A program made the position numbers and the translations under genes. Under the pieces are notes generated by a model that did not search any database, was not told where the DNA came from, and saw nothing but the letters and a program-made list of their open reading frames with translations. From Campylobacteraceae bacterium (GTDB lineage Bacteria; Campylobacterota; Campylobacteria; Campylobacterales; Sulfurospirillaceae), in NCBI GenBank assembly GCA_027050775.1, contig JALUBH010000027.1, forward strand, positions 207,640-251,059: DNA of 43,420 bases. Reading direction: 5' to 3'. Of the stretch, positions 8,928-36,784 are shown in pieces. How positions within the stretch are numbered: the first letter of the stretch is position 1; every line of letters starts with the position of its first letter.

Positions 8928-8945
8928 ATTTGCTCCCTTTGCACT

Positions 8946-11399: not shown

Positions 11400-11430
11400 T
11401 TTGCATCCTTTTTGATATTTGTTAATAAGA

Positions 11431-11462
11431 AGTATAAAATAAAAAAGAGGCAAAAAAGAGGC
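11431..11462 (-). promoter_or_regulatory. Tandem 11-bp repeat and -10 box upstream of the TorA-like gene
   Basis: AAAAAAGAGGC occurs twice head to tail (11441-11451 and 11452-11462, + strand reading), period 11. Reading on the minus strand the repeats end 4 bases before TATACT (11431-11436), so they cover the -35 region, and no good -35 hexamer is present. This is the geometry of an activator-dependent promoter with an OmpR-type regulator bound next to polymerase. Function is inferred. Confidence 0.5.
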
Positions 11463-15051: not shown

Positions 15052-18000
15052 CTACTCCTTTTTTGGTTTATCTCCATCAAATATATAAGCATACATAGGT
15101 ACATAAATCAGCGTCAAGAGCGTTCCCACCAAAAGACCGCCAATCGCCACATCCGCCAAAGGACTAAGTCTTTCAAGCCCAACAGCCTCCTCTAGTGCTA
15201 TAGGAATCATACCTGCTATAGTACCAAATGCTGTCATCATAACCGGTCGAAATCTTATTGTTACACTATCTAGTGCACTTTGAAATGGGCTTTCACCTTT
15301 CTCTTTGTTTCTTTGATAAAAATCTATCAGCAAAACTGCATTTTTGATGATAATACTAAACAGAAGCAGTATTCCCAAAAGACTCGGCAAACAACTCGGC
15401 TTATTAAACAGCAGCATACTCCATGAAGCTCCTATCAAAGATAGAGGCAAAACAAGTATCATGATAAAAGCCATCCTTACTGATTTATAAATCGCTATCA
15501 AACTCATGATAAGTATGACAACACCTAAACCTATTGCTTTTAGCATTCTTGTAAAACTGTCATTTATCTGTGCTATATCTCCTGTTTGAGTTACCACAAA
15601 AGCATCTGATTTGACACTTTTAAGTGCTGCTAGAGTATCATCTGTCAGGTGCGTAACCGGTCTTTTTGCACGATATCCATTTACATCCAAAGAGTACAAC
15701 ATTTTATCTCTTTCTATCTTTGCATAAGTTAAAGATTTTTTAATTTTAGCGATACTACTAAGAGGAATCTCTCCAAATTTTGTCGAAATTGGAAGCAATT
15801 TTAGAGTCTCTAAATTTTTAGTAAACCTGTCTTTTAGGTATATCCTCACAAATTGGGTATTCATGGACTCTAAATTTGCATTTAAAGAGACTACTTCGCC
15901 TTTGATCGGTATCTGCATAGCTACATTTAGAGGCGTAATGCCATATCTTAGAGCCTTGTTTCTATCTACATCTATTGTGTATTCTGTGAAGTCTTTACCC
16001 CAACTAGTTGATACGGAAGTTAAGCCTCTGACAGTTTTCATGGCCTTCATCACTTTTTTAGAGTATTTACTCATGCCATCAAATGTAGGTGAGCTGATTC
16101 TTGAATCAACAGTTGCTTTGATGCTTGACACAGCAGTTGCACCAAAATCATAAACATCATCTTTTTTAATTCCCTGCAAATGAGATAATTTCTCCCTGAT
16201 TATATTTTCAAGTTGCCACAATGTCTTTTTTCTTTTAAATCTGTTTACAGCGTTTATGGTCATAGTAGCCTCTGTAGGCAAATTTCCACTTCCTAAACTC
16301 AAAACTCCCGGTTCACTTCCAAAAGCGATAGAGCTTCTTACTGTCCAAGGTTGCTTATTGAGCCATTTTAAAAATGGTTTTAATCTCTTCTCGGCCTCAT
16401 CAACAGTTCCATTTGCACTAAAGGCAATCTGCGCTTTGATAATACCGGTATCCATAGGAGGCATAGCATCTTTTCCGATAGTTGGCATTATATTTTTCAT
16501 ACTAAAAATCAAAAATGCTATAACACCCATGGTTAAAATCATCCTTCTAGGTATCTTCCAGCCATTGTTTGAAAATTTTATAATCCCCTCATATGGAGCT
16601 ACTAGTCTGCCTACTGTATTTTGATAAAACCACTCAAAAGCATTTTCTATTTTTGTCTTTTTAACTCCATTTTTATAGAGCCATGCTGAAAGAAGCGGTA
16701 TAAAGGTGATAGATAAAAAGTAACTGACAAGCAAAGCTGTGATAAGTGTCTCAATCAATGGCTTAAATATTTTTTGAGGGAATCCTCCGACAAACATCAA
16801 TGGAAACAAAATAGCAATAGTGGCGAGAGTACCCGCAAATACAGGACTTAAAACCTCTTTTGTTCCATTTTTTATCGCTAATTGCAGATCCTCTTTATTT
16901 TTGACTAAGTGCCTCTCTATGTTTTCCAAAACAACAACTGCATCATCCGTGAGCATTCCAAGCGCTAGTATGATAGCAGTATATATGACTATATTTAGCT
17001 CACCACCTGTTAACCATATGATTGCTATAGTCGTAAAAAACACCATAGGGATGGATAGACCTGCTGCGATGATAGCTCTAAAGTTACCCAAAAACAGCAT
17101 AATGACCAATAGAGTATATATGACAGCATCTCTTAGGGCTTCAAGCATATTTGTGTTTGCCTGTTCTATCAAATCTCTCTGGGTATCGCTTATCTCAAAT
17201 TTGATATTTGGGTATTTGACTTCTAGTTTTTTCATCTGTGCACGAGCTGCATTACTCACATCAAGCACACTGCCTCCAGGAGCTCTTTGAATTGACAAGG
17301 CTATAGAGTCTTTTCCATTTCCTATATATCCGCTTGTTCTTTTTTGATATCCCCATTTTACATCTGCTACATCTTTTAATCTAACATTTGGTTTTATCAA
17401 TAAATTTTCCAAATTTAAAATATTATCTTTTTCACCATATATCGTAACTGTATAAAAACTGTTCTTGCCCTTGATGAAACCAACCGGTATATCTTTATTT
17501 TGTGCCATAATCACTTTTGTTATATCTGCAAAATTAACACCATATTTTTTCGCTTTAAACGGGTCGATTTCTACATTTATTGCACTCTCGTATCCACCAA
17601 AAACTTCTACATTTCCTATAGCTTTATCACTCAACAGATGAGGCTTTATGAAACTATCGGCGATTTTTCTTATCTCACCTAGTGTTATAGATGAATTTTT
17701 TGGGCTAAGTGCTATAACATCGACAGGAAGCGTAAAGTCACCCGCTGTATAAATAGCCGGATTCAGACCTGCTGGAATCTTTGCTTTTGCTATATTTAGT
17801 GCATTTGCAACATCCACTGCAGCTGCATTTAGACTTTTTTTGTATCCAAATTCAGCACTGACTATAGACATATTTGCAACATTTACACTGCTGACATCTG
17901 TGACTTGACCTAGCCTTGAAAGTTCTTCCTCTATAGGCTTTGAAACTGTTGAAGCAGCTACTTTTGCTGTAGCTCCCGGTACTTTTGTGATAACCACAAT

Positions 18001-18132
18001 CTTAGGTGGATTTGCATCAGGAAAAAGGTTTTTTGGTAGCGTTGTCAAACCTACAATTCCCATGATAAAAAATCCAACAATCAGGCTATAAAGGAAATAG
18101 GGTCGTTTATAAAAATACTCAAATAACATCAT
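15052..18132 (-). CDS. RND-family efflux pump, inner-membrane permease (HAE1-like)
   Basis: 1026-residue permease with the normal RND layout of twelve membrane segments and two large periplasmic loops. The paired acidic residues of segment 4 are seen in ALGMLTDDAVVVLENIERH (HAE1/multidrug type rather than heavy-metal type), followed by PVFAGTLATIAILFPLMFVGG. The second half carries LFSIIIKNAVLLIDF and RFRPVMMTAFGTIAGMIPIAL. The start is the first of two ATG codons (MMLFEYF) behind AAAGGATGT. It is encoded 7 bases after its adaptor gene and works with the adaptor and TolC-like proteins to expel compounds across both membranes. Substrate is unknown. Confidence 0.92.
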   Translation of the reverse strand: MMLFEYFYKRPYFLYSLIVGFFIMGIVGLTTLPKNLFPDANPPKIVVITKVPGATAKVAASTVSKPIEEELSRLGQVTDVSSVNVANMSIVSAEFGYKKSLNAAAVDVANALNIAKAKIPAGLNPAIYTAGDFTLPVDVIALSPKNSSITLGEIRKIADSFIKPHLLSDKAIGNVEVFGGYESAINVEIDPFKAKKYGVNFADITKVIMAQNKDIPVGFIKGKNSFYTVTIYGEKDNILNLENLLIKPNVRLKDVADVKWGYQKRTSGYIGNGKDSIALSIQRAPGGSVLDVSNAARAQMKKLEVKYPNIKFEISDTQRDLIEQANTNMLEALRDAVIYTLLVIMLFLGNFRAIIAAGLSIPMVFFTTIAIIWLTGGELNIVIYTAIILALGMLTDDAVVVLENIERHLVKNKEDLQLAIKNGTKEVLSPVFAGTLATIAILFPLMFVGGFPQKIFKPLIETLITALLVSYFLSITFIPLLSAWLYKNGVKKTKIENAFEWFYQNTVGRLVAPYEGIIKFSNNGWKIPRRMILTMGVIAFLIFSMKNIMPTIGKDAMPPMDTGIIKAQIAFSANGTVDEAEKRLKPFLKWLNKQPWTVRSSIAFGSEPGVLSLGSGNLPTEATMTINAVNRFKRKKTLWQLENIIREKLSHLQGIKKDDVYDFGATAVSSIKATVDSRISSPTFDGMSKYSKKVMKAMKTVRGLTSVSTSWGKDFTEYTIDVDRNKALRYGITPLNVAMQIPIKGEVVSLNANLESMNTQFVRIYLKDRFTKNLETLKLLPISTKFGEIPLSSIAKIKKSLTYAKIERDKMLYSLDVNGYRAKRPVTHLTDDTLAALKSVKSDAFVVTQTGDIAQINDSFTRMLKAIGLGVVILIMSLIAIYKSVRMAFIMILVLPLSLIGASWSMLLFNKPSCLPSLLGILLLFSIIIKNAVLLIDFYQRNKEKGESPFQSALDSVTIRFRPVMMTAFGTIAGMIPIALEEAVGLERLSPLADVAIGGLLVGTLLTLIYVPMYAYIFDGDKPKKE

Positions 18133-18139
18133 ACATCCT

Positions 18140-19225
18140 TTAATTTATAGCTCTAACTTTAATTCCGCTAAGAAGTTTAAGTAAGATATCTTGTTTTGCA
18201 ACTATAATTTTCTCTTTTGCATTTACACCTTTGACTATAACGCCTTGCTCCCCATTTGCTACAATTTTCACCTCTTTCGGTATGGCTTTATTGTTAACTA
18301 AGGTCAAAATATCACTCTTTCCGTTTCTATTTAAGATAGCATCATGAGGGAGCTTGAATCCTTTTCCACTAAAAATAACAACATCTATATTTACAGTCTG
18401 ATTGCTTGCTAGACTCTCATCTATATTTGCTAGATATTCCAAGAGACCGTTATATGTTGTATTTAACGGACTTAGTTTATATGTTTTACTGTTGTAAATA
18501 ATCGCCTCAGCTTTCGTTTGGGCAGGTAATCTTACAAGCAAGTAACTATTTGATTTAGCACTGATGCTTATCAATGGTTTTCCCATCATCGCTATATCTC
18601 CCACATTTGCTAGTCTTGTTACTACTCCACTTACTGGTGCCTTGATAGTCGTATATGAAAGCATATTTTTGATTGAAGCTTTATTTGCATTTAACTCTTT
18701 TATTTTATACCTAAGAGTATCTATGGCTGATTTTACAGCTTCTATACCAGTCACTTCTCTATCAAATTCCTCTTTTGATGCTCCTTTGACTTTCAAAAGT
18801 TTTTCTGTTCTTTTGTGCGTTGCTTCAAGGTTTTTAAGAGCCACTCTCTTAGCTACTAATTGTGAATTTATAGAGTGGATATTTAGATTCAAAGATTCAA
18901 GTTGTGTTATCAACTCTTTATTATCAATCCGTACTATATCTTCTCCTTTTGTCACTAAGACACCACTTTTTACTATCTGTTTTATGCGCGCACTGACTCT
19001 TGAGCTTATCTTTACATCATCATTGCTTTTTGTTAATGCTAGATAGGGCAATGTCAGAGTAGCTTTTTCGTTTTTTACTTTCATCACTTTTACATTCATC
19101 TCATATGCGATTGGCAGTGGTGTTTTTGCCTCTTTGGCTCTCTTTTCCTTGATTAATTTTTTACCTCCCATAACTGCTGCTGCAATTATCACCAATATAA
19201 TTATATATGATAAAAACCTTTTCAT
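18140..19225 (-). CDS. RND efflux periplasmic adaptor (membrane fusion protein)
   Basis: 361-residue adaptor with an N-terminal membrane anchor (about 5-20). It has split lipoyl halves (SARIKQIVKSGVLVTKGEDIVRID and APVSGVVTRLANVGDIAMMGK, quoted as separate short stretches around residues 80-105 and 200-222) flanking an alpha-helical coiled coil (about 108-190), then a beta-barrel and a C-terminal membrane-proximal domain. SD AAAAGGAG precedes the ATG. The start overlaps the TolC-like gene by 4 bases (ATGA type), showing co-translation with the outer-membrane partner. Confidence 0.9.
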   Translation of the reverse strand: MKRFLSYIIILVIIAAAVMGGKKLIKEKRAKEAKTPLPIAYEMNVKVMKVKNEKATLTLPYLALTKSNDDVKISSRVSARIKQIVKSGVLVTKGEDIVRIDNKELITQLESLNLNIHSINSQLVAKRVALKNLEATHKRTEKLLKVKGASKEEFDREVTGIEAVKSAIDTLRYKIKELNANKASIKNMLSYTTIKAPVSGVVTRLANVGDIAMMGKPLISISAKSNSYLLVRLPAQTKAEAIIYNSKTYKLSPLNTTYNGLLEYLANIDESLASNQTVNIDVVIFSGKGFKLPHDAILNRNGKSDILTLVNNKAIPKEVKIVANGEQGVIVKGVNAKEKIIVAKQDILLKLLSGIKVRAIN

Positions 19226-20493
19226 TCTACTACTCCTTTTAAATCATTTCCATAAATTACCGCAAGTTTGGCTATATCTTGCCATCTTTTGGATGTTGTC
19301 TCAAAATAACTAGATTTTGCACTTAAAACTTTATCTTCATACACCAAGTAATCCTCTTCTGTCATCCTTCCTTCGTCAAATGAAACTTTTGCATACTTGA
19401 GCAAATTTTCACTTCGTTTTATATCCTCGCTCTTTAGTTTTCTTGAACGCTCCAACAATTTCAGCTCTTTTTGAAGTGCATTTACTTGTGCCTTGAGCTC
19501 TTGTTCACTCTTTTTTAGTTTCATTTTATTTTTCATAATTTCAACTTTTTTTAGTTGCATATCTATATCTTCGCCTCTGTTATAAAGTGGCATTGAGAAA
19601 CCCAACTGATAAAAACCGTATCCATCATGTACGCTTTTCCCATACTTAACATCATTTTGTGCATAATTTTCACTCCACATAACATTTAGTGCTACCTTTG
19701 GATAGTACCTCTTTGCTTTGCTTGCTCTAAAATCACTCTGTGCAGCTTTTATGACTTCTTGCAATGGTTTTAATGCAAAAAAATCACCTTTTGTGATCTC
19801 TCTTACCAATCTTAACTTTGCAGGTTTTTTTATCTCAATGCCTGTCAAATTTTCTATATTTGCTACAAGATTTGCTTTTTGTATCTCGATGTTATTGATA
19901 ACTATGTCAAGTTGGTTTAATTTTTCATCTATCTTGTCTATAGCAATTCCCGGCATCCTTCCGCTATTTACTGAAATCTCTATATCTTTTCTTGTCTTTT
20001 TTAGAGATGATTTCGTAGCATTTAAACTAACAAGAAGATTATCGAGATATCCCAATGATGCGTTTGAACCTAAAATCAAAGCTTCATTTTGATAAAAATT
20101 CAACTCTTTTTTTAGTCTTGCACTTTTTGCCAAATATTTTGCTTTTTGACTCAAATCTCCCAACTCTTTTACAAAAATAGGCATAGATGCGCTAATCCCT
20201 ATCTTCTCTATACTATTTGAAAATGGTAGAGGCTCGCCAGGATTAAATCTTGTCGTTGGAGACAGAGGGCGAAGATTTGTAGGGCTATTATAATGAGTAT
20301 AATTTGCAAACAAATCAAGCTTTGGATAGTAGCCAGCATTTACTCTCTTTTGTGCTATTTGAGCCATTTTTGAGCTAATCTCATCTATCTTGGTGGTTGG
20401 TTGTTTTTTAATCGCATCAAAAAGTTGCGTTATCGTAACTGCTTGCAGACTCACTGCAAACACAACTAACATAAAAACAGAAAACTTCTTCAT
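19222..20493 (-). CDS. TolC-family outer-membrane efflux protein
   Basis: 423-residue outer-membrane channel with a signal peptide (MKKFSVFMLVVFAVSLQAV). It has two repeats of long amphipathic helices separated by beta-strand stretches, as in TolC/CusC. The end of the first half contains GRMPGIAIDKIDEKLNQLD and the second GFSMPLYNRGEDIDMQLKK, the recurring "S-P-L-[YF]-[NR]-G" type motif. SD AAAGGAG precedes the ATG. It is the first structural gene after the TetR regulator and overlaps its end by 4 bases. Confidence 0.9.
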   Translation of the reverse strand: MKKFSVFMLVVFAVSLQAVTITQLFDAIKKQPTTKIDEISSKMAQIAQKRVNAGYYPKLDLFANYTHYNSPTNLRPLSPTTRFNPGEPLPFSNSIEKIGISASMPIFVKELGDLSQKAKYLAKSARLKKELNFYQNEALILGSNASLGYLDNLLVSLNATKSSLKKTRKDIEISVNSGRMPGIAIDKIDEKLNQLDIVINNIEIQKANLVANIENLTGIEIKKPAKLRLVREITKGDFFALKPLQEVIKAAQSDFRASKAKRYYPKVALNVMWSENYAQNDVKYGKSVHDGYGFYQLGFSMPLYNRGEDIDMQLKKVEIMKNKMKLKKSEQELKAQVNALQKELKLLERSRKLKSEDIKRSENLLKYAKVSFDEGRMTEEDYLVYEDKVLSAKSSYFETTSKRWQDIAKLAVIYGNDLKGVVE

Positions 20494-21125
20494 TGTTGCT
20501 CCTTTAGCATTTTTTGAATTTTTTTAAACACATAATCTGAAATCAAATCCACATCACACAGGGCACATGTATCTATCTCTTCAGATTTTTCCGCATTTAC
20601 TCTCAAAGACTTTGTTGTTACCATAAGATTTAATGTTCCTAAAATCATAAAATACACAATCATTGGAATCACATCAACGAAGCAATCTCTATCTACACCC
20701 CTGCTCATAATATCCATAAAAAGTTTATAAAGCTTTTTCATATGCATAAAAAGAGTTTCTGGGATTTGAGATCCGCTGTCGCTTAACTCCTTAAGTAAAA
20801 GTGCAGGAAGATAAGGATGTGAAAAAGCAAAAGAAGCATAAGTTTTAATAAAACTCTCTAACTCTTGAGACGGAGTTTTACAAATCTCACTATCTTTTGA
20901 AATATTTTTATATATCTCATCCAACACTTCGACAATTACTGCTTCATATAGTCCTTGTTTACTTTTATAATAGTAAAAAATCATCGCCTTGTTTAAATCA
21001 CACATGGTCGCCAACTCATCCATAGAGGTGCGACTATATCCTTTTTTAGAAAAAAGCTTGGTTGCACTATCAAGTATAAGCTTTTTTGACTTCTTGGCAT
21101 TTCTTCTTTTTACCGGCTTCACCAT
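20490..21125 (-). CDS. TetR/AcrR-family repressor of the efflux operon
   Basis: 211-residue regulator. The N-terminal helix-turn-helix is typical: ILDSATKLFSKKGYSRTSMD then CDLNKAMIFYYYKSKQGLYE (about residues 18-68). The rest is an all-helical ligand/dimer domain containing several Cys (ICKTPSQ, DRDCFVD, CALCDVD). ATG at 21125 is preferred to a TTG seven codons upstream, because AAGGAGAGG lies directly before it and the longer form would run into the operator. A palindrome overlapping the -10 box (21140-21163) is the likely self-operator. The gene leads a run of nine closely packed genes down to the TauE-like exporter. Confidence 0.9.
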   Translation of the reverse strand: MVKPVKRRNAKKSKKLILDSATKLFSKKGYSRTSMDELATMCDLNKAMIFYYYKSKQGLYEAVIVEVLDEIYKNISKDSEICKTPSQELESFIKTYASFAFSHPYLPALLLKELSDSGSQIPETLFMHMKKLYKLFMDIMSRGVDRDCFVDVIPMIVYFMILGTLNLMVTTKSLRVNAEKSEEIDTCALCDVDLISDYVFKKIQKMLKEQQ

Positions 21126-21139
21126 TTTCCTCTCCTTAC

Positions 21140-21163
21140 TAACCAACTAGATAGTTAATTATA
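21140..21163 (-). promoter_or_regulatory. TetR operator overlapping the efflux operon -10 box
   Basis: A 22-bp inverted repeat centred on the GA at 21150-21151: AACTA (21145-21149) mirrors TAGTT (21152-21156), and TAA/TTA mirror each other at the outer ends, giving 8 of 10 paired positions. On the minus strand TATAAT occupies 21158-21163, so a bound dimer would cover the -10 region. Location 15 bases before the TetR start implies autoregulation. Confidence 0.6.
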
Positions 21164-22269: not shown

Positions 22270-22527
22270 TTATTTTCCAAAGATTTTTGCTATCTGCTCA
22301 ATCTGTTTTTCACTTAATGAAGATGCGTAGCTTTTCATGATAGAATTTGAAGTTTTAAAATAATTCAATCTCTTTCTTATCTCCTCTTTTTTTAAGTTTT
22401 TAACTATTTTTGATCTTCCAAGCGCCCTCTTCTCGAAATTTTTTCCATGGCAATTCTTACATACGGTAATATATGAAGCAAAAAGGCCTACATGTAGAGC
22501 TATAAAAATCACTATATATTTATGCAT
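22270..22527 (-). CDS. Small periplasmic monoheme cytochrome c of the reductase operon
   Basis: About 85 residues with a signal peptide and a single CKNCH heme site close after it, then GKNFEKRALGRSKIV and a C-terminal helix SLSEKQIEQIAKIF; the Met before it (IMKSYAS) is the candidate sixth heme ligand. ATG at 22527 is preferred to the GTG two codons earlier because it lies 6-7 bases after AGAGGG, whereas the GTG touches it. TAATG overlap with the preceding gene's stop shows coupled translation. It resembles the second cytochrome at 42984-43289 (CHGxNxxKxALGRS pattern). It is likely to pass electrons to or from the molybdoenzyme made upstream. Confidence 0.82.
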   Translation of the reverse strand: MHKYIVIFIALHVGLFASYITVCKNCHGKNFEKRALGRSKIVKNLKKEEIRKRLNYFKTSNSIMKSYASSLSEKQIEQIAKIFGK

Positions 22528-22799
22528 TAACACCCCTCTTCAACCTCATCAAGCTGGCTTAAATCATCGATTATGCTTAAAATTTTACCACTTTTATTGG
22601 CTTCGATTCTCTCTTGCATATTATTGTTTCTAATGATAACAAAATAATTTTGATTTTTCATCTGTTTTATATGTAGAAATATAATATTTTGATTTTTATA
22701 GTATGATTTGATACCATTTTTTACACTTTGTATATCTTTTTCATTTGCCACAAGTGTTATGAGTAAACTAAAACAGAGTATAAGTGTATATTTTAGCAT
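22527..22799 (-). CDS. Small secreted PepSY-like protein ending in Gly-Cys (second copy)
   Basis: 90-residue protein with a signal peptide (cut near LVANE). The mature part follows the PepSY-like plan: an amphipathic helix (KNGIKSYYKNQNI), then three strands and a final IEANKSGKILSIIDDL. It ends in acidic residues followed by Gly-Cys (VEEGC). It is a diverged paralogue of the protein encoded just upstream, which shares the KRGKILSI-D-L stretch and the Cys terminus. The start overlaps that gene's stop by 7 bases. The function is unknown; PepSY-like domains are usually binding or inhibitory modules. The exposed terminal Cys suggests a thiol carrier, disulfide partner or metal ligand. Confidence 0.75.
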   Translation of the reverse strand: MLKYTLILCFSLLITLVANEKDIQSVKNGIKSYYKNQNIIFLHIKQMKNQNYFVIIRNNNMQERIEANKSGKILSIIDDLSQLDEVEEGC

Positions 22800-23080
22800 C
22801 CACCACTTGCTTCCATACCTTGGAGATAATCACTTATACTTAATATTTTTCCTCTTTTATTGACAAGAACTTTATCTTTTCCTGATTCTGTTTTTATGAT
22901 GATTCTATACTTTGCTCCCATCTTCTTAACTGAGAGGATTTTTATATCTTCGCCTTTATACTGTTTAGCGATATTTGTTTTGACAATTCCTGGCAATGAA
23001 GCATAATCAAACGCAAAAGCAGAACTTGTAAAAACCAACAAAACTATAAGAACCAAACACTTAATAGAATTTTTTTTCAT
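22793..23080 (-). CDS. Small secreted PepSY-like protein ending in Gly-Gly-Cys (first copy)
   Basis: 95-residue protein with a signal peptide (cleavage near AFAFDY). The mature domain has the PepSY-like pattern LPGIVKTNIAKQYKGEDIKI, a KYRIIIKTESGKDKVLVNKR beta hairpin and GKILSISDYLQG, then a flexible tail MEASGGC with the only Cys of the mature protein as its last residue. SD AAGGGAG stands 7 bases before the ATG. It lies 65 bases after the molybdoenzyme gene, separated by a strong RNA hairpin. The function is unknown. The GGC tail recalls the Cys-bearing C-terminus of SoxY, although SoxY ends in GGCGG and has another fold. Confidence 0.76.
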   Translation of the reverse strand: MKKNSIKCLVLIVLLVFTSSAFAFDYASLPGIVKTNIAKQYKGEDIKILSVKKMGAKYRIIIKTESGKDKVLVNKRGKILSISDYLQGMEASGGC

Positions 23081-23145: not shown

Positions 23146-26100
23146 CTAGGCTTTTACAAGTCCTACAAACGAATCATAGAAAACTGCTGAGCCACCTACT
23201 AAGTCTTCAAGACAAGAATTTTTCAATCCACTATCAACTGCTTGAGCCGCATTTGAGCAAATTCCACTCTCTCTAGCTTTTTCACCTTTAATAAGTTTAC
23301 CATCAACTGTGATATCTCTAGCGCAATATGCCCAATGTCCAAAACTCCAAGAGGTATTTAAAACTCCCGGTCTCAAACCTTCGATTGCCCTAACTTTTCC
23401 TATCATATATTTTTTGCCGGCCGGTCCTAAATCCCAAGATCCATCAGGGTTATCGGCTGAGACAATTTTTGCCATATCTCCATCTTTAAAACCCATCTCC
23501 AATGCAGTCTGGGCATTTAAATCAATAGTGTTTTCAGGCATAACTGCTTGCAACCAGTAGTCAACTGCTTGAGTCCTTGCTTGTCCACCGGTAATCGGCT
23601 TATAAGTTATAGACTTCAACGGATAAGCAGAACTTCCAACAACCTCTTTTCCTGCATAGTCGATGGCGCGGCTGTATTTGCTAATACCACTAAATCTTTT
23701 TCCTGTATAGCTATGTCTAGTAGTTCCCACAGGTTCGGAGTAGAAGTTAAACAGTTTGCCAAACTTATGTAGTATTTTATCGCTATTTTCTACATTTTTA
23801 ACATAGTTTATAAAGTCCTCTCCTCTAACACCACGATTTAGCAGATAAATAGTCTTTTTAAACCAGTTTTTGCCATTTGCATCAACACAGGCTTTCTCCC
23901 ACTTATCAAAATCAAATGTAGCAGAAGTCATATGTCTTCTTGCTTTTTTAAATATCTCTATCTCTTTTGCATCAGCATCCGGCAATGCGTCACCTTTATG
24001 ATCGCCTGCGGCTAAATTTGATGCCATTTTAAGATACCAATCTTCAATTCTTTTAAGAGGCATACCTTTACCAAGGCCATCATCACCATATCCAGGTAGT
24101 CCCATTTTTTCAGCCATAGCAAGTAGCATAGACTCATAACCTACATGCTGTTTTTCGCCAAAAATAGTAGCGGTTTCGGTCAAAGGCTCGATTGTCGGTT
24201 GTCTCATTTTTGACATTTTTGTAACTGCTGCAGGGGTTGTATGCGGAGTTCCCCATCTCTCCCAAATAGCATAATCAGGAAAGATATAATCAGAAAACAT
24301 ACTAGTTTCGCCAACTGCAACATCACTTGCGATGTATAGTGGAGTCTTCTTGAGATCAAGTATAGTCTGCATTGACATTTGAGCTGCAGGATTTGACAAT
24401 AACGGTGTGCCCATGATGGTCATCAAGATTTTGATACTATACGGATACGCATCATCTAAAGACGGTATAGCTTCTTGATAAACATTTCCTGTATGTGGAA
24501 ACCAAGGTCTTTTTGCAGGATAACCATTTTTTTGAAAATATGTACTATTTTCATAATATGAGCCTTCTCTGCTTATCTTGTGCCCAAAAGCTTTGGTTTT
24601 ACCGGCAAACGCATCTTTTTTAAAATTAAATGGTCCACCTTTGCTACCATCTTCGTGGTAGTGTCCGCCACCTGCTATAAGTCCACCGTTATAGTCTATA
24701 TTTCCGACTAGCATATTCATATAAATTACAGCCATGCCGTTAAAGTATCCATTTGTATGCTGAACCGGTCCTCTATACATCTCAGCACCAACTTTTCTAC
24801 CATATTTTTCAAAGTTTGTGTACTCTTTGACTAATGCAATTATCTCTTTTTTGTCTATACCGGCTTCTTTAGCCCATTCATCCATAGACTTACTCATAGC
24901 ATATTCTTTAACCATCATCAATTCTGATTTTACTTTTATGCCATTTAGCTCGCCTGAGAAGAATAAATCTCCAGTAATAGGATTTAGCTTATCATTTGTA
25001 TTTACCGCTACAGGTTTTCCATTCTTGGTTACTACAAACTCATCACTTAATCCAATACCCAAATCACTAGCTCTTAGTTTTTTACCCGGGCCCTCTTTAT
25101 CAAATGTTACCAAGTGAGTTGCACTTGTCCAGCTCTCTTCATTTGCTTTTTTCGCTGCTGCTTTATTTGCATTTACAAGAAAACTTTTAACGATTCTATC
25201 ATTTTCAAACATCCATCTAATCATACCGTAGATTAGTGCTGCATCTCCACCAGGACGAACTGGAACCCATTTCCATGCTTTTGCTGCACTTTTTGAAAAT
25301 CTAGGATCTACAACTACAATTTTGCAACCTTCATTTGTTACGGCATTTGTTGCTAAGCTTGCCATAATCGGAGGTCCAAAGTTTGCTTCAGCAAAACCTG
25401 TTCCAAAATAAAAGACAAATCTACAATTTCTAAAATCCGGTTTTAAATGTTCAGCAGCCGGTTTCCACTTGCCGCCACCAAGATATTGACTTGTGATTTG
25501 CTTATAAGCGATATGGTGTGACTGCTCACAAACAGTTGTGTGCTCCATAAAGTTATTACCGCCGTAAGAACCCCTCATCCATCTTTTTGCAAACTCTTTT
25601 CTACCATGCTCCATTCTACCTGCGAGCATCAAAAATTGGTTGTTTTTTGGTCCGAGATCCGGTTGATCCGGATTTATCAAAAGATCCAAGTGAGCAGCAT
25701 GTTTTGCTTTAAAATCGGCAAGGCTCATCTTGCCTTTTCCAACATTCATAGCATCACCTGCCATCGCTTTTGCAACTTTTGCATCACTTAAGGCTCTAAC
25801 TTGACGCATTCCTTCAACTACCCTATTTTCTTCACCGGGAACATCTGCAAAAAGTTTTCCACCTTCAACTACTTCAGTTATAGCTTTATCAAATGGTATA
25901 ACTTTCCACTTGTTTTCGCCTCTTTTACCGGCTCTTTTTAATACTTTTACAACACGATACGGATCATACATAGTTTGGATACCGGCTTGACCTTTAGGAC
26001 AAATACCGGCATCAATCTTAGCACCGATTTGAATATCTGTAGAAGTTGGAATCGGGCTGTTTAAGTTTTGGATTGAGTATGGGTTACCATCTATCTTAAC

Positions 26101-26337
26101 CGCAACACCATCTTCAATTTTCACTTTGATTGGGCAGTCTGTGTGACATTGTAAACATACAGAATAAATTACATTTTCGGCATCATTTAGAGGATAGTTT
26201 ATCTTCTCTCTGCCAAATCCTTTGCTATTAACTTTTTCAACTGCACCTAGGCAAGCTGCTGACCCACCAAGTAGAGCCGAAGTTTTAAGAAAACCTCTTC
26301 TATCCATTGGTTTGTTTTTTATCATTTCATTTTTCAT
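23146..26337 (-). CDS. Molybdopterin catalytic subunit, TtrA-like (tetrathionate/selenate/arsenate reductase group)
   Basis: Large periplasmic oxidoreductase of about 1063 residues. ATG at 26337 (AGGAGAAGAGTA before it, TAATG overlap with the membrane-subunit stop) is chosen over an upstream in-frame start. It has a Tat signal (MDRRGFLKTS, residues 11-20) and an N-terminal [4Fe-4S] motif C61-x2-C64-x3-C68-x44-C113. C270 in HTTVCEQSHH is the likely molybdenum ligand. Long stretches resemble Salmonella TtrA as I remember it: KRAGKRGENKWKVIPFD with VVEGG, SWTSATHLVTFD, GYPAKRPWFPH and LPGYGDDG. The Fe-S/anchor/catalytic gene order also equals ttrBCA. Related SrdA (selenate) and ArrA (arsenate) enzymes share the same fold, and an ars operon is nearby, so the acceptor could be tetrathionate, selenate, arsenate or another oxyanion. 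The family is firm; the substrate is not. Confidence 0.85.
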   Translation of the reverse strand: MKNEMIKNKPMDRRGFLKTSALLGGSAACLGAVEKVNSKGFGREKINYPLNDAENVIYSVCLQCHTDCPIKVKIEDGVAVKIDGNPYSIQNLNSPIPTSTDIQIGAKIDAGICPKGQAGIQTMYDPYRVVKVLKRAGKRGENKWKVIPFDKAITEVVEGGKLFADVPGEENRVVEGMRQVRALSDAKVAKAMAGDAMNVGKGKMSLADFKAKHAAHLDLLINPDQPDLGPKNNQFLMLAGRMEHGRKEFAKRWMRGSYGGNNFMEHTTVCEQSHHIAYKQITSQYLGGGKWKPAAEHLKPDFRNCRFVFYFGTGFAEANFGPPIMASLATNAVTNEGCKIVVVDPRFSKSAAKAWKWVPVRPGGDAALIYGMIRWMFENDRIVKSFLVNANKAAAKKANEESWTSATHLVTFDKEGPGKKLRASDLGIGLSDEFVVTKNGKPVAVNTNDKLNPITGDLFFSGELNGIKVKSELMMVKEYAMSKSMDEWAKEAGIDKKEIIALVKEYTNFEKYGRKVGAEMYRGPVQHTNGYFNGMAVIYMNMLVGNIDYNGGLIAGGGHYHEDGSKGGPFNFKKDAFAGKTKAFGHKISREGSYYENSTYFQKNGYPAKRPWFPHTGNVYQEAIPSLDDAYPYSIKILMTIMGTPLLSNPAAQMSMQTILDLKKTPLYIASDVAVGETSMFSDYIFPDYAIWERWGTPHTTPAAVTKMSKMRQPTIEPLTETATIFGEKQHVGYESMLLAMAEKMGLPGYGDDGLGKGMPLKRIEDWYLKMASNLAAGDHKGDALPDADAKEIEIFKKARRHMTSATFDFDKWEKACVDANGKNWFKKTIYLLNRGVRGEDFINYVKNVENSDKILHKFGKLFNFYSEPVGTTRHSYTGKRFSGISKYSRAIDYAGKEVVGSSAYPLKSITYKPITGGQARTQAVDYWLQAVMPENTIDLNAQTALEMGFKDGDMAKIVSADNPDGSWDLGPAGKKYMIGKVRAIEGLRPGVLNTSWSFGHWAYCARDITVDGKLIKGEKARESGICSNAAQAVDSGLKNSCLEDLVGGSAVFYDSFVGLVKA

Positions 26338-27515: not shown

Positions 27516-28472
27516 CTACTTAATGTAATACACACTAGGATGTGTGCCTACTTCTTCTTTTAATCTAAAGGCATTTGGTGAAGCTATAAGCTCCGCTACT
27601 AAGCTATCAGGATCACTTCCGTCACCAAAATATGTAGCTCTACCTATACAGGTGACAACACACTCAGGCAACATTCCTTTTTCTATTCGCGGGATACAAA
27701 AATGACATTTTCTAGCATTTCCTATTGGAGATTTATCATCTTCTCTTTTCCACTCTTTTTCATATTCATATGAAGCTTCGGTTTCGTATTTTCCTGCTTT
27801 TTCTTTACCGAGAAAAACTTTTGGAGCATCAGCTGCACCATCTATGTATTCCATACCAAAATCAAATGTTCTTGCATCATATGGGCAAGCATTTAAGCAA
27901 TATCTACAGCCTATACACTGATCATAGTCAACAATTACAATGCCATCAGGTCTTTTCCAGGTAGCTTGGGCAGGACAAACAGGCACGCAAGGAGGCTCAT
28001 CACACTGCATACAAGGTCGAGGAAGTGTTACATGTCCAACATTTGGATAACTTCCTATCTCTTGTTGAATTACAGGTCTATATATGACCCCCGGCGGAAG
28101 TTTATTTTCAGCAGCACAAGAGACAGAACATGCATCACAACCAACACATTTTCTTAAATCTATTACCATATTCCAATGCCTTTGTTCTATTGGTTTTTTA
28201 AGTGCTCTTTGTAAATCTCTCATCATCCTGAGTATCACATCTTCACCCGGTATTGCTGGTGGTAAATCAAAAGGTTTGAAAGGTTCGGCAAAATTTAAAT
28301 TACTACCATCCATATCCGCTCTGGCTTGAACCGGGGCAAGTGCATTTACAATACCACCTGCAATCAATCCTCCAAAGATACCTTTTGAAAACTTATCTAG
28401 AAAATCTCTTCTAGATTCATCTGTTTCCAAAGTTAAATTTTCATCAACTCTCGAAAGCTCTTCTTTGCTCAT
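27516..28472 (-). CDS. Tat-dependent four-cluster ferredoxin subunit (TtrB-like)
   Basis: 318-residue electron-transfer subunit with a Tat-like N-terminus ([14 protein letters not shown], residues 18-31). Four ferredoxin Cys groups are seen: [35 protein letters not shown] and CHFC with CVVTC, sixteen Cys in total, for four [4Fe-4S] clusters linking the membrane anchor to the molybdenum subunit. ATG at 28472, with AAAGGAG 6 bases upstream, is chosen. A longer in-frame reading to 28568 would cross the sigma54 promoter and has no SD. First gene of the reductase operon. Confidence 0.88.
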
Positions 28473-28544: not shown

Positions 28545-28559
28545 GCAAATACTGTTCCA
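28545..28559 (-). promoter_or_regulatory. Sigma54 (-24/-12) promoter of the reductase operon
   Basis: Minus strand TGGAACAGTATTTGC: the invariant GG and GC are separated by exactly 10 bases, and the elements TGGaAC and TTGC match the consensus TGGCAC-N5-TTGCA at nearly all positions. It lies about 73 bases before the Fe-S subunit start, and a sigma54 activator gene is encoded divergently next to it. Confidence 0.72.
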
Positions 28560-28569
28560 ACTTTTCACA

Positions 28570-28589
28570 AATCCCTGTATTTAGGGATT
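28570..28589. promoter_or_regulatory. Inverted repeat, candidate binding site of the sigma54 activator
   Basis: AATCCCTGTATTTAGGGATT: two perfect 7-bp arms with a 6-base spacer, 11 bases upstream of the -24 element. A weak -10 box (TATAAC, 28589-28594) for the divergent binding-protein gene abuts it. It could therefore serve both activation of the reductase operon and autoregulation. It is closer to the promoter than most enhancer sites. Confidence 0.45.
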
Positions 28590-28615: not shown

Positions 28616-29482
28616 ATGAAAAATGATAAAAAAATTTCCACCAGTGGTAAAATTTTTACCAGTTTATTCTTAATTTTTATATTTATTTCACCATTGATTG
28701 CAAAAAGTATCACTTTTTCTTTTACAGGCACTACTTTAAAAGAGGATTTAAAAACATATTTGCAATGGAAAAAATATTTGGAAAATAATTCAAAATTTCA
28801 TGTAGATATAAAGTTTGCAAGAACTTATGCAGAAGTTATCTCAAATATAAAAGATTCCAAATCGGACATAGCTTATATATGCAGTTCAACATATACTGTA
28901 CTTAAAGACAAAAACAATGCAAAATTGCTTGCAATTCCAATAGTAAATGGAAACGATAAATACTACTCGGATGTTATCACCTTAAAAGATACAAAATATA
29001 AAAGTTTACTTGATTTTAAAGATAAAATTTATGCTTTTACAGATCCAGGCTCTACATCCGGTTCCATTGCTCCTAGTTATAATATAGAAAAAAATGGATA
29101 CAAAGTCAGTAATTTTTTTCGCCATTTGATATATACATATGACCATGGTGAATCTATAAATGCTGTGCTCGATGGCTTTGTTGATGGCGCAAGCGTAGAT
29201 AGCCTAGTGCTCACTCAGTATGAGAAAAAACATCCAAATGCTCTAAAAAAATTGAGAGTTGTAGAAAAACTCGGTCCCTTCACCATATCTCCTATAGTTG
29301 CGAGATCAAATCTAAGCAAAAAAGAGTTTAATAAACTTCAAAAACTTTTTTTAAACATGCATAAAACAAAAATAGGAAGAAAGATACTAGATCACCTCAA
29401 TATAGACAAGTTTGAAAAACCGACAAATCAGACTTACAAGAAAATATATACTATGTTAAATTTTCTCAAAGATAAAAAATGA
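28616..29482 (+). CDS. PhnD-like periplasmic binding protein, probable sensor subunit
   Basis: 288-residue secreted protein (signal peptide about residues 10-30, FISPLIAKS) of the PhnD/phosphonate-binding-like family. Typical stretches are SFTGTTLKEDLKTYLQWKKY, KSDIAYICSSTYTVLKDK and the GSTSGSIAPSY loop. Also typical are DGFVDGASVDSLVL and GPFTISPIVARSNL. C89, its only Cys after the signal peptide, lies in the loop that usually lines the ligand pocket. ATG at 28616 follows AAGGAAAG; longer readings lack an SD. Its stop overlaps the kinase start (ATGA), so it is part of the sensor and not of an ABC importer. PhnD-like sensors occur in TtrS and as AioX/ArxX beside arsenite-responsive kinases. 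Ligand unknown. Confidence 0.82.
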   Translation: MKNDKKISTSGKIFTSLFLIFIFISPLIAKSITFSFTGTTLKEDLKTYLQWKKYLENNSKFHVDIKFARTYAEVISNIKDSKSDIAYICSSTYTVLKDKNNAKLLAIPIVNGNDKYYSDVITLKDTKYKSLLDFKDKIYAFTDPGSTSGSIAPSYNIEKNGYKVSNFFRHLIYTYDHGESINAVLDGFVDGASVDSLVLTQYEKKHPNALKKLRVVEKLGPFTISPIVARSNLSKKEFNKLQKLFLNMHKTKIGRKILDHLNIDKFEKPTNQTYKKIYTMLNFLKDKK

Positions 29483-31143
29483 AAAAACTTCTGCAAAAGC
29501 TGCATTCTCTATCGATATATGCAAAACTAGCTATTTTAATCTTTACTATTATCGCGATTTTTTCAACGGTTATAGTTATACTTGCAATTAACACATCTAA
29601 AAGACAGACGAATGAGATCATAAACGAGATGATAGATAGCAATATTCAATCAAATAGGGACTTCTTAACAAGTGCGATTTTGGCAAATGACAATTGGGCA
29701 CTTTTTAAATTTTTAAAATCATTGTCTAAAAATAGAGCCATCAAAGATGCAGGTATAGTTGATACAAATTTCATCGTTTTGGCCCACACAAATACAAAAA
29801 AACATAGAATTGGTACCATCTTAAATGACAGAAGCAAACATACAATTCTACCCTTTAAAAAAGATGGGGTATTACTTGGGTATTTTGTGCTCGATATCGA
29901 AAAAAATTCGATTAAAAATATGCTTGAAAAGAGCTTTTCAACAAATTTTATGATTATGATTTTTGCCGCTCTTTTTTCTTTTCTCCTCGCTATTTATTTT
30001 ATGAAAAATCTGCTTGACAGGCTAAATATATTAAAAGAAAATGCACGAGCAATTTCACAAAAAAGATGGGGTGACATAAAAGAGATACAAAGTGTTGAAA
30101 ACGATGAAATCACAGATTTAGTCAAGACAACGACCTACTTGATGAAAGAGATACAAGACTCTGTTGAAAAAGAAGAGCAACTAAAAAGATTTTATCAACA
30201 AATTTTGGCTTCCGTTGATATATTTATTATTATCTGTGACGAAAATTTAAATATCATGTATCAAAATGAACACCACATAAGTAAGCTTTTACTTAAAAAC
30301 GGAAAGTTCAAAAGCCCATATGTAAAAGATTTGATAAAATGCTATCAAAGCAACTCTTGTAAATTTTGCAAACAAAAAATCACAAATGAGATGGGGGAAG
30401 ATCTCTCTTTGTACTACCAGATAAGATTGGTAAATGAGTACCTCGTTATATCTTTTTCAGATATAACCCAACTCTCAAAACTTGAAGAAAACGAGAAGAT
30501 TTTACACTCTTTGAAAACTTTGGGAGAGATAAGTTCACTCTTTGCGCACGAAATTAAAAATCTCCTACAACCTTTGAAGCTCTTGTTGCAAGATGGTGAA
30601 GATATAGATACCCAAGATTTGCAAATCATCAACAACACACTAAACAGAATGGATGCCCAAGTGATCGACTTTTTATCTTTAGGAAAGCCCATAGACAAGA
30701 GAGATACCACTATCTTGGATGTTCAAAATTCACTTGAAGATTTAATCGAGATAGTAAAACCGAAACTAGAAAGCAAAAACATAACACTAACATACAATAT
30801 CGAAAAGGATTTAAAAGTAAACATAAGCAAAAATTCATTTGAGATGATATTTATAAACCTAATCAACAACTCTATAGAAGCTATAAAAAAAGGTGGCGAA
30901 ATAGATATACAATGGCACAAAAAAGATGATAAAATGACTGTTTTAAAAATCTCGGATAGTGGCGAAGGCATACCTGCTGCTATTAGAAAAAAGATCTTTA
31001 AGCCGTTTTTTACTACAAAAACAAAAGGATCGGGACTCGGATTATTTACAATTTATAAAATTGTTTATCTCTCCGGAGGCGAGATGAGTCTTTTAGACAA
31101 AGATAAAACTACATTTTTAATAAATCTGCCGCTAAAGGGATGA
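29479..31143 (+). CDS. Sensor histidine kinase of the reductase regulatory system
   Basis: 554-residue membrane kinase: segment 1 (about 14-36), periplasmic domain (about 37-150), segment 2 (about 158-178), HAMP (about 180-232), a PAS-like domain (about 238-335), phosphoacceptor H357 in SLFAHEIKNLLQPLKLL and an NtrB-type ATPase domain with INLINNSIEAIKKGG, DSGEGIP and GSGLGLFTIYKI. The PAS-like domain holds four Cys: C253, C288, C294 and C297 (C-x5-C-x2-C), an unusual density suggesting metal, Fe-S or thiol sensing. ATGA overlaps join it to the binding protein before it and the regulator after it. Confidence 0.88.
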   Translation: MKKLLQKLHSLSIYAKLAILIFTIIAIFSTVIVILAINTSKRQTNEIINEMIDSNIQSNRDFLTSAILANDNWALFKFLKSLSKNRAIKDAGIVDTNFIVLAHTNTKKHRIGTILNDRSKHTILPFKKDGVLLGYFVLDIEKNSIKNMLEKSFSTNFMIMIFAALFSFLLAIYFMKNLLDRLNILKENARAISQKRWGDIKEIQSVENDEITDLVKTTTYLMKEIQDSVEKEEQLKRFYQQILASVDIFIIICDENLNIMYQNEHHISKLLLKNGKFKSPYVKDLIKCYQSNSCKFCKQKITNEMGEDLSLYYQIRLVNEYLVISFSDITQLSKLEENEKILHSLKTLGEISSLFAHEIKNLLQPLKLLLQDGEDIDTQDLQIINNTLNRMDAQVIDFLSLGKPIDKRDTTILDVQNSLEDLIEIVKPKLESKNITLTYNIEKDLKVNISKNSFEMIFINLINNSIEAIKKGGEIDIQWHKKDDKMTVLKISDSGEGIPAAIRKKIFKPFFTTKTKGSGLGLFTIYKIVYLSGGEMSLLDKDKTTFLINLPLKG

Positions 31144-32501
31144 TGATGAAAATCGCAATAATAGATGACCAAGATGAGATAAGATACTCTGTCTCCAAAA
31201 CCCTAAAAAGGGCAAAATACGAAACAGTGCTCTTCAATGGCTTAGAGGCAAACATAGTAAAACAGATAAAAGAAAACGAAATAAAACTTCTCATTGTTGA
31301 TGTTATGCTTAGTGATGATTTTTCCGGTATAGATTTGATAAAAATATTAAGGGAAAACAGTATAGATTTACCGGTGATTTTGATGACTGCCTACACAACT
31401 CCAACAAACATGATAGAAGCTTCAAAAATGGGGATCAAAGATATACTCCAAAAACCTTTCACAGCTGATGAACTAAAAGATGTAATCAAAAAATATGATG
31501 AGAAAAAAGATACCTATATCAAAGTAAAAGACCAGATAAATGAAGAGTTTGTCGGCTCTTTTGAAACTATGAAAGAGATATACAGCAAGATAGGTATCGC
31601 AGCCAATAACAATCTACCTGTGATGATTTTAGGAGATACAGGAGTGGGAAAAGAGTTGATAGCCAGACTCATCCATAAAAATTCAAAAAATTCTCACTCG
31701 CAAATATTGGCTGTAAACTGCGCTTCCATACCAAAAGAGCTATTTGAATCACAACTTTTTGGGCATGAAAAAGGCTCATTTACAGATGCCAATAAACAGC
31801 ATATTGGGTTTGCTGAGGCTGTTGGAGACGGCACTCTGTTTTTAGATGAGATTGGAGAACTTGATATCTCACTACAAAGCAAACTCCTTAGATTTTTGGA
31901 AAATAAAACTTTTAGGAAAGTCGGCGGAAATAGTGACATAAAATTTCGCGGCAGAATCATATCTGCTACAAATATAAACATAAATAAAAATATAGAAAAC
32001 GAGAATTTTAGACAAGATTTATATTTTAGACTCTCCATGATAAACATAGAAGTACCGACACTAAAACATAGAAAAAAAGATATACCTATTTTGGTGAATT
32101 TTTTTATCAAAAAAGCAAACAAAGAGTTAAAGCTAGATATAAAAGGCATATCCAATACTGCTTTGGAAATTTTGAAAAATAGAACTTACAAAGGAAACAT
32201 AAGAGAGTTAAAAAATATAGTCTATAACTCCATACTAAATGCCCATGAAGATGTAATCCAAGAAAATAACATAAAATTTGAACAACAAAATAAAAAAGAG
32301 ATTTCCTTAAATGATATATTTTCACATATGCTCGAAACAAAGGGCCTAGAAAATGCAAAAACTATACTAGAAGAGATTGAAAAAGAGTTCTACAAGACTT
32401 TGGTCAAAGAAGATAGCAATATAACTCACCTTGCAAAATATATACAAACTTCCAGAAGCACACTAAGGAAAATACTTCAAAAACATAATATAAACACATA
32501 A
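31140..32501 (+). CDS. NtrC-type sigma54-dependent response regulator
   Basis: 453-residue activator. Receiver about 4-118 with D9/D10 and phosphoacceptor D54 (LLIVDVMLSDD). AAA+ domain about 135-370 with Walker A GDTGVGKE, Walker B GTLFLDEIGELD and arginine finger region FRQDLYFRL. Fis-type helix-turn-helix at the C-terminus (LAKYIQTSRSTLRKILQKH). The loop that contacts sigma54, normally GAFTGA, reads GSFTDA, keeping the essential Phe-Thr. Three ATG codons in a row open the gene, overlapping the kinase stop. The adjacent -24/-12 promoter makes the reductase operon its most probable target. Confidence 0.9.
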   Translation: MMMKIAIIDDQDEIRYSVSKTLKRAKYETVLFNGLEANIVKQIKENEIKLLIVDVMLSDDFSGIDLIKILRENSIDLPVILMTAYTTPTNMIEASKMGIKDILQKPFTADELKDVIKKYDEKKDTYIKVKDQINEEFVGSFETMKEIYSKIGIAANNNLPVMILGDTGVGKELIARLIHKNSKNSHSQILAVNCASIPKELFESQLFGHEKGSFTDANKQHIGFAEAVGDGTLFLDEIGELDISLQSKLLRFLENKTFRKVGGNSDIKFRGRIISATNININKNIENENFRQDLYFRLSMINIEVPTLKHRKKDIPILVNFFIKKANKELKLDIKGISNTALEILKNRTYKGNIRELKNIVYNSILNAHEDVIQENNIKFEQQNKKEISLNDIFSHMLETKGLENAKTILEEIEKEFYKTLVKEDSNITHLAKYIQTSRSTLRKILQKHNINT

Positions 32502-32574: not shown

Positions 32575-32619
32575 ATGAAAGAAACTGCGATTAATATTTT
32601 AGGTCACAAGTATGAATAA
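32575..32619 (+). CDS. Possible 14-codon leader peptide overlapping copA
   Basis: ATG at 32575 preceded by AAAAGG opens a 14-codon frame (MKETAINILGHKYE) whose TAA stop at 32617-32619 overlaps the copA ATG at 32612. It has a better SD than copA itself (AGG, 8 bases). Translation of the leader could open or couple copA initiation. It could equally be chance; no conservation can be checked here. Confidence 0.3.
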   Translation: MKETAINILGHKYE

Positions 32620-34363: not shown

Positions 34364-35061
34364 TGAAAAATTTAAAAATAAATAAATTGGTTAGTATTGG
34401 GTTTTTATGTACAGGTTTGGCAATAAATAGTTTTGCCGGAGGAAGTGATGATCCGCTATATACAAAACTTACTATGGACTCTTTGGAGCTACAAAATAAT
34501 AATGAACAATCTATAAAATATGATGGAAATATTTGGATTGGCTATGATATAAACAAGGTATATCTATACTCCGAGGGAGAAAAACCCAAAGATTCTTCGA
34601 TGAGCAGTGAAAGCCAGTTTGTTTTTTCTCATGCGATTAGCCCTAGGATGGATCTTCAAGTCGGTGTAGGTTATGACAAAACTCCACAAAACCATCAAAC
34701 ATGGGGAGTTCTTGCACTTAGTGGCATGATTCCTTATTTTATAGATACAAGAACAGCTCTTTTAGTAGGAGAAGACGGCAATATAGGTTTAAGAGTCTCT
34801 GCGGAGTACGAAGCGGTGATAACTCAAAAACTAATCTTAGTGCCAAATATATCGGCATATCTATATACCAAAGATACTCCAAAAGTAGATATAGGCAAAG
34901 GTTTATCAAATTTGACTTTAAATCTCAAACTCCAGTACAATATAACAAAACAGTTTTCTCCATACATAGGAGTTGAATGGAATAAAAACTACGGCAATAC
35001 TTATGACTTAGATCCGGTAGATGAAGTATATGCTATGGTAGGATTTAAGTTCTGGTTATAA
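34363..35061 (+). CDS. copB: CopB/PcoB-type outer-membrane copper resistance protein
   Basis: 232-residue outer-membrane beta-barrel protein with a signal peptide (cleaved near NSFAGG). CopB-like stretches are DGNIWIGYDINKVYLYSEGE, ESQFVFSHAISPRMDLQVGVGYD, LLVGEDGNIGLRVSAEYEAVI and the C-terminal terminal Trp-Leu after VGFKF. The Met/His-rich N-terminal extension found in many CopB proteins is absent. SD GGAGG precedes the ATG, which overlaps the copA stop. A strong terminator follows at 35077. Confidence 0.85.
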   Translation: MKNLKINKLVSIGFLCTGLAINSFAGGSDDPLYTKLTMDSLELQNNNEQSIKYDGNIWIGYDINKVYLYSEGEKPKDSSMSSESQFVFSHAISPRMDLQVGVGYDKTPQNHQTWGVLALSGMIPYFIDTRTALLVGEDGNIGLRVSAEYEAVITQKLILVPNISAYLYTKDTPKVDIGKGLSNLTLNLKLQYNITKQFSPYIGVEWNKNYGNTYDLDPVDEVYAMVGFKFWL

Positions 35062-36386: not shown

Positions 36387-36784
36387 CTTAGTGCCTCTTT
36401 CACTTTTGGCAAAAGCTCTTTTTGTATATCTTGGTATGTTTTTTCAAACTCACTGTACTCTTTTCCATCGGGATCGGTAAAACTTACATGTATCTTCTTA
36501 TAGGGCTTTGGAAACATTGGGCAAGTCTCTTTTGCATTATCACAAACTGTTACTACCAAATCAAACTCTATATCTATAACCTCATCCAGATTTTTTGAGT
36601 GATAACTCTCATCCCAAGCATCATACTTTTGCAAAACTTTTTTTGCATTGGGATTTACATGCCCACTTGGTTTCACACCACAACTAAAAGCACTAATACT
36701 CTCTAAATATCTGTTTATCAAAGCTTCACCCATGATACTTCTACAACTGTTACCCGTACACATTACTAGCACTTTTTTATTCAT
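36383..36784 (-). CDS. arsC: Thioredoxin-coupled arsenate reductase ArsC
   Basis: 133-residue cytoplasmic enzyme of the low-molecular-weight phosphatase fold that reduces arsenate to arsenite for export by ArsB. The phosphate loop is MCTGNSCRS with C9 and C14. C81 and C88 (CDNAKETC) complete the redox relay of the thioredoxin-dependent type. Its ATG overlaps the arsR stop by 8 bases and its stop overlaps the arsB start. Confidence 0.93.
   Translation of the reverse strand: MNKKVLVMCTGNSCRSIMGEALINRYLESISAFSCGVKPSGHVNPNAKKVLQKYDAWDESYHSKNLDEVIDIEFDLVVTVCDNAKETCPMFPKPYKKIHVSFTDPDGKEYSEFEKTYQDIQKELLPKVKEALS

Follow-up and report, generated by a model that had tools for sequence, protein, structure and literature searches.

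A secreted pair of Gly-Cys-ended proteins encoded behind a TtrA-related molybdenum reductase in one genus of Campylobacterota

Introduction

What are two small secreted proteins, each ending in Gly-Cys, doing directly behind the gene for a molybdenum reductase? The question is raised by a stretch of 43,420 nucleotides from a Campylobacteraceae bacterium, referred to here as the window. A first-pass annotation described the two proteins as neighbouring, diverged paralogues with PepSY-like character behind a TtrA-type enzyme, and took the retention of the terminal Cys as a sign of function, perhaps as a swinging thiol. It left two questions to be answered. Is the terminal Cys invariant among homologues? 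And do the genes always accompany a ttrA-like gene?

The operon and its surroundings

The minus strand carries, in this order, genes for the B, C, and A subunits of the reductase, the two Gly-Cys proteins (P1 and P2) and a monoheme cytochrome. An X-S-R regulatory module is divergent from this operon. The features are as follows.

22270..22527, minus strand: monoheme c-type cytochrome (CKNCH); likely ATG start at 22527, alternative GTG at 22533
22527..22799, minus strand: P2, ORF of 90 aa, secreted paralogue of P1, ending ...EVEEGC
22793..23080, minus strand: P1, ORF of 95 aa, secreted, cystatin/PepSY-like, ending ...EASGGC
23146..26328, minus strand: TtrA-like molybdopterin reductase (A), 1060 aa, Tat signal, Cys Mo ligand C270
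26337..27506, minus strand: NrfD/PsrC-type membrane C subunit (PF03916, E=5.5e-33)
27516..28472, minus strand: iron-sulfur B subunit, TtrB/DsrO-like (~180 bits), with its own twin-arginine motif
28545..28559, minus strand: sigma-54 type promoter TGGAACAGTATTTGC, 87 bases before the B-subunit ATG
28570..28589, no strand assigned: dyad AATCCCTGTATTTAGGGATT, candidate regulator site
28616..29482, plus strand: X, PhnD-like periplasmic binding protein of AioX/ArrX type, with ArrX/AioX as best solved relatives
29479..31143, plus strand: S, membrane histidine kinase (HATPase_c, 5.8e-18)
31140..32501, plus strand: R, NtrC-type sigma-54 response regulator (Sigma54_activat, 2.7e-61; Response_reg, 2.1e-19)

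The likely start of the B subunit is the MSKEEL at 28472, a Met shared with the orthologue in another genome of the genus (G061); a longer GTG ORF extends to 28568. The P1 and P2 ORFs share a 7-base overlap. Immediately downstream of P2 lies the CxxCH gene (22270-22527/22533), just where the first-pass annotation had placed a monoheme cytochrome, and its product scores 26 bits against Pfam Cytochrome_CBB3 (E=1.2e-5), just under the cut-off of 27.

Another gene group in the window (8376-11453) encodes a TorA-like molybdopterin enzyme and, after it, a 183-aa protein carrying CxxCH at its C-terminal end, with a response regulator and kinase downstream. There is also an efflux set consisting of an RND pump, a membrane fusion protein, an outer membrane channel and a TetR-type regulator (15052-21146), and a copper resistance pair consisting of a multicopper oxidase and a CopB-like outer membrane protein (32612-35061).

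The Gly-Cys end and its conservation within the genus

P1 and P2 are 36% identical (BLASTP E=7e-12, from this single comparison only). Both begin with a signal-peptide-like stretch that holds one Cys, and in each mature protein the sole Cys is the last residue. The description of neighbouring, diverged secreted paralogues ending in (G)GC is thus accurate (GGC in one, EEGC in the other), and the claim that mature P1 has no further Cys applies to P2 as well.

Ten genomes of the window's own genus were sampled, including those coded G061 and G397-G404. The ttrA-like gene is present in nine of them (84-100% identity); in G397 it is split across two contigs, the pieces being 85-87% identical. Gly-Cys genes lie directly behind it in all nine. 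The tenth genome, G403, has neither the ttrA-like gene nor Gly-Cys genes. The second question is therefore answered in the affirmative, because the association holds in 9/9 genomes and Gly-Cys genes were never found away from a ttrA-like gene. Both P1 and P2 are present in eight of the nine; G061 has a single P2-type gene and no P1.

The answer to the first question is also yes. Gly-Cys forms the exact last two residues of 16/16 complete homologues, with P1 ending in GGC (8/8) and complete P2 in EEGC (8/8). A 17th homologue, the P2 of G399, was left out of this count because it runs into a contig end and so cannot be judged. That gene (L062 9649-9972) loses its Gly-Cys end near the contig end, which is probably an artefact, although it could be a real exception.

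The Gly and Cys codons show 47 synonymous and 0 nonsynonymous pairwise differences (pN = 0), with pS at 0.82-0.86, which is nearly saturated. Synonymous sites outside these codons are likewise near saturation, and the cores of the proteins have pN/pS ratios of 0.23 (P1) and 0.45 (P2).

What if the Gly-Cys end has no function and is a by-product of overlapping stop and start codons and a ribosome-binding sequence? In the window the P1 Cys codon, within GGA TGC TAA, does overlap the P2 ATG, and GG-rich sequence lies ahead of it. However, the P1 Cys codon (TGT/TGC) is outside any downstream ATG in G397, G398, G399, and G401, and codon overlap is therefore dismissed as the cause of Cys conservation. 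The P2 tails have no start-codon overlap in G397, G398, G400, G402, G404, and G061, and all complete P2 proteins end in Gly-Cys nonetheless, even that of G061, which has no same-strand gene directly downstream. Together with the purely synonymous change, the non-overlapping genomes lead us to reject the artefact, which we regard as very improbable. The invariance of the Gly-Cys end is beyond chance. Selection acts on the peptide itself, because both codons have changed only synonymously and several genomes have no start-codon overlap.

Distribution beyond the genus

Sequence and profile searches of 397 Campylobacterota genomes found the P1/P2 family solely in the window's genus. A profile search of the other 34 genomes of the taxonomic family gave no match, and the phylum's 26 other TtrA-type loci, among them that of an additional, ordinary TtrA in G061, have no Gly-Cys gene next to them. 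Scans of viral contigs and plasmids yielded no accepted relative either; outside Campylobacterota, genome contigs were covered by one short-peptide scan.

Several candidates were rejected as homologues. Those at L003-L008 and L013 are unrelated or non-coding frames, those at L078 and L081 are thioredoxin-like proteins, and that at L067, in G403, is a frame of a 427-aa protein that matched only weakly. Several other candidate matches have stop codons within the frame. The verdict of false match covers the remaining matches that were inspected. No accessory of the P1/P2 kind is described in the family libraries and papers that were searched, and the family appears to be undescribed.

A folded core with a flexible tail

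No Pfam or NCBIfam family claims P1 or P2, the best matches all falling below cut-off. PepSY (PF03413) has no match in the genome, and PepSY_like (PF11396) reaches 14.1 bits on P1/P2 against a cut-off of 28.3. AlphaFold models both proteins as a helix and then four strands, after which comes a low-confidence tail of ~10 residues that ends in the Cys. Mean pLDDT is 77.6 for P1 (core ~90, tail ~43) and 81.2 for P2 (core 89-95, flexible tail). Foldseek places these models with DUF2874/PepSY-like proteins and DsbG-type dimerisation domains (E 0.01-0.5). They have the helix and four-stranded antiparallel sheet of the PepSY/PepSY_like fold, at moderate TM-scores of 0.43-0.50, and DUF2874/PepSY_like proteins are secreted as P1 and P2 are. 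Therefore, the label "PepSY-like" stands as a description of the fold but not of membership in the Pfam family.

The closest natural fold for both proteins is the N-terminal dimerisation domain of the DsbG/Hh1141 type (PDB 8pxe, 2iy2). The nearest structures are that domain of the Dsb protein Hh1141 (8pxe), other DsbG domains and DUF2874, all with modest scores. P2 is 31-32% identical to the Hh1141 domain across 57 columns, and in one profile search a domain of this type was the top, weak match (E=0.27). Neither A5 nor P2 by itself turned up a credible match among solved structures. DsbC_N (PF10411) is not listed for P1/P2 and has no match above cut-off in the genus. Taken together, the fold and the one match at E=0.27 make homology with the DsbG N-terminal domain no more than putative. 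Nor do P1 and P2 resemble Dsb proteins of this type throughout, since they have no thioredoxin domain or CxxC and carry a Gly-Cys tail of ~10 residues instead.

The modelled fold suggests that P1 and P2 may dimerise. A swinging arm would be expected to take just this form, a small dimer bearing a mobile tail that ends in a thiol, and the "swinging thiol" of the first-pass annotation fits the AlphaFold models, in which the last ~10 residues are disordered on a folded core.

A TtrA relative that is not an ordinary TtrA

TtrA, the selenate reductase SrdA and the alternative (archaeal) arsenate reductase form one lineage, which is thus known to include arsenate reductases (PMC7331816, PMC10100899). 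The window reductase belongs to this lineage: its best match is TtrA, its operon has BCA order, and its Mo ligand is a Cys (C270, which is invariant throughout and lines up with the Cys of ArrA). The likeness to the TtrBCA tetrathionate reductase extends to the Tat motif on both A and B and the NrfD-type C subunit.

However, the enzyme is no ordinary TtrA: the NCBIfam TtrA model (NF011567) gives it 438.8 bits, whereas ordinary Campylobacterota TtrA proteins score 944-1010 bits, both below the curated cut-off of 1750. In a tree the window reductase forms a separate clade with full support, clearly apart from 24 ordinary TtrA rows; long branches leave the place of this clade relative to plasmid and haloarchaeal enzymes unsure, and one row (P_L097), a wrong-strand frame of a GC-rich plasmid, was disregarded. 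Another difference from TtrBCA is the arsenic-type XSR module, which replaces TtrS/TtrR. The first-pass assignment to the TtrA type is therefore correct as to kinship, but an ordinary TtrA is ruled out by the score and the separate clade. Nor is the enzyme an ArrA by its score on NF041714 (111.7 bits, curated cut-off 1600), and the genus has no ArrA that reaches the cut-off. As a whole, the operon represents a recognised type of respiratory system in variant form, with an undescribed protein pair added.

The reductase clade also has conserved Cys residues that are absent from ordinary TtrA, namely C817 (8/8), C1027 (8/8), and C1005 (7/8). Only G061, which has neither P1 nor the cytochrome, departs from C1005, with Gly in its place.

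Related enzymes have been noticed elsewhere. A clade with BCA gene order but unknown function is on record (PMC2500031), and a TtrA homologue of Anaeromyxobacter is possibly an arsenate reductase (Muramatsu 2020, as cited in PMC9751629). A plasmid of Citrobacter arsenatis carries a related BCA reductase set directly beside arsDABC (L095 5058-10453), possibly another TtrA-lineage arsenic enzyme, and similar BCA enzymes occur on many Escherichia and Citrobacter plasmids.

The regulator points to an arsenic-type substrate

If the reductase is not an ordinary TtrA, what does it reduce? The XSR module and its promoter are a better clue to the substrate than the reductase's own annotation. Comparison with solved structures ranks ArrX first for X (E=8e-38), then AioX (E=1e-27) and PhnD (5e-19). 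In AioX, ArxX, and ArrX alike, the bound ligand is reported to be the cognate enzyme's own substrate, and the residues of the AioX pocket have been listed, including an arsenite-binding Cys that PhnD lacks (PMC5908839). X keeps all seven (Tyr88, Cys106, Tyr131, Ser161, Ser163, His192, and Asp210), as read from the alignment and checked across the genus.

The module as a whole is built like AioXSR, ArxXSR, and ArrXSR, with a binding protein that keeps the pocket residues, a kinase, a sigma-54 regulator and a sigma-54 promoter for the enzyme operon. That promoter, TGG(A/C)A(C/T)-N5-TTGC, is found in 7/7 intergenic regions, 85-87 bases ahead of the B-subunit ATG, and dyads of the CCC..GGG type were also seen by eye in the intergenic regions of other genomes. 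The difference lies in the partner, which is an Aio, Arx or Arr enzyme in the known modules and a BCA enzyme of the TtrA lineage here.

An ArsB-type arsenical pump and an ArsC of the low-molecular-weight-phosphatase type are encoded by overlapping genes on the minus strand (35136-36784), ~7-8 kb from the operon. Given the AioX/ArrX-type sensor, the lack of an ArrA above cut-off in the genus and these ArsB/ArsC-like genes in the window, an arsenic oxyanion (or its thio or antimony counterpart) seems a likelier substrate than tetrathionate. Pocket residues alone do not set specificity (PMC5908839), so X could answer another oxyanion.

What might the terminal thiol do?

There is good support for the general idea that the proteins offer a terminal thiol with a function linked to the enzyme, and it is probable that this thiol serves the reductase by some chemistry. 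Which chemistry is a harder matter. Our first choice, because the sensor is of arsenic type, is capture of As(III) by the P1 and P2 tails, and it is a tentative one. Both proteins would be exported via Sec and associate by way of their cystatin/DsbG-N-like cores; a P1-P2 heterodimer is the probable arrangement, with P2 alone in G061. With the cores paired, two flexible terminal thiols would sit side by side. Such arms might then extend to the reductase and bind the trivalent species it produces (arsenite or an analogue), which would keep that product from poisoning exposed thiols or inhibiting the enzyme. Capture would require the putative dimer, since the single Cys of one protein binds As(III) weakly. 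What counts against this reading is that only one genus is so far known to have the family. In addition, sulfur chemistry is equally at home here, because the genus also has Sox genes.

Perhaps, then, the terminal Cys is a sulfur carrier, loaded with a persulfide, polysulfide or thiosulfonate that it either brings to the reductase or takes away from it. There is a precedent in Wolinella, where the periplasmic, rhodanese-type Cys protein Sud serves the polysulfide reductase PsrABC as a polysulfide transferase. Sud, too, is a periplasmic Cys protein for a Mo/FeS/NrfD reductase, but P1 and P2 have a cystatin-like fold, and no rhodanese-type neighbour is conserved in the genus. The resemblance to SoxY of SoxYZ is closer in outline. 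SoxY is secreted, has a single Cys after Gly near its C-terminus on a flexible tail and works with a partner protein, so that the mobile Gly-Cys arm and paralogous pair of P1 and P2 recall SoxYZ. A canonical, separate SoxY ending in GGCGG is found in five genomes of the genus, which means that sulfur-arm chemistry is present in these cells. However, P1 and P2 are not homologous to SoxY (a Pfam scan found no match to PF13501 up to E=10), nothing follows the Cys in GGC or EEGC whereas the SoxY arm ends GGCGG, and the linkage is to a Mo reductase rather than to Sox genes. The enzyme lineage is sulfur-active (PMC10100899), and the clade-specific C817 and C1027 (with C1005 in 7/8), absent from canonical TtrA, would suit such a role. 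In a neat version, the substrate would be thioarsenate, the arsenic analogue of thiosulfate; the thiol would take the sulfur and arsenite would be released. The arsenic-type sensor speaks against sulfur carriage. Because of the sulfur lineage and the canonical SoxY it is ranked close behind As(III) capture, as a possible but doubtful alternative.

A third proposal is that P1 and P2 are structural or assembly subunits that carry no substrate. The terminal Cys would be disulfide-bonded to the paralogous protein or to one of the reductase's clade-specific Cys residues, tethering the complex or helping it to mature. Tight synteny is consistent with this, as are the clade-specific Cys residues and the absence of both P1 and C1005 from G061. 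However, the G061 coincidence is one event, and a tether has no need of a strictly terminal Cys without any following residue. A disulfide tether to the reductase is thus placed third, after capture and sulfur carriage, and is rather unlikely.

Finally, the cytochrome might be the partner, with the thiol reducing the enzyme or ligating or assisting the downstream heme. The cytochrome gene does lie directly behind P2 in 7/8 loci with readable sequence there, and the seven orthologues are 68-80% identical to the window copy. The cytochrome neighbour noted by the first-pass annotation is therefore usual but not obligatory: G061, a single-contig genome, keeps one Gly-Cys protein without the cytochrome, which rules out an obligatory partner. 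A lone Cys without a partner is also a poor redox group, and this proposal seems improbable.

Implications

If As(III) capture by the terminal thiols, or another thiol-arm role in the service of this reductase, is correct, a thiol-arm accessory would be added to molybdenum respiration, where none was found described. TtrA-type annotations would then be able to mask arsenic enzymes, with the sensor gene giving the better hint of the substrate. The operon and its XSR module would also provide a candidate gene set for alternative arsenic (or thioarsenic) respiration in Campylobacterota that are without ArrA.
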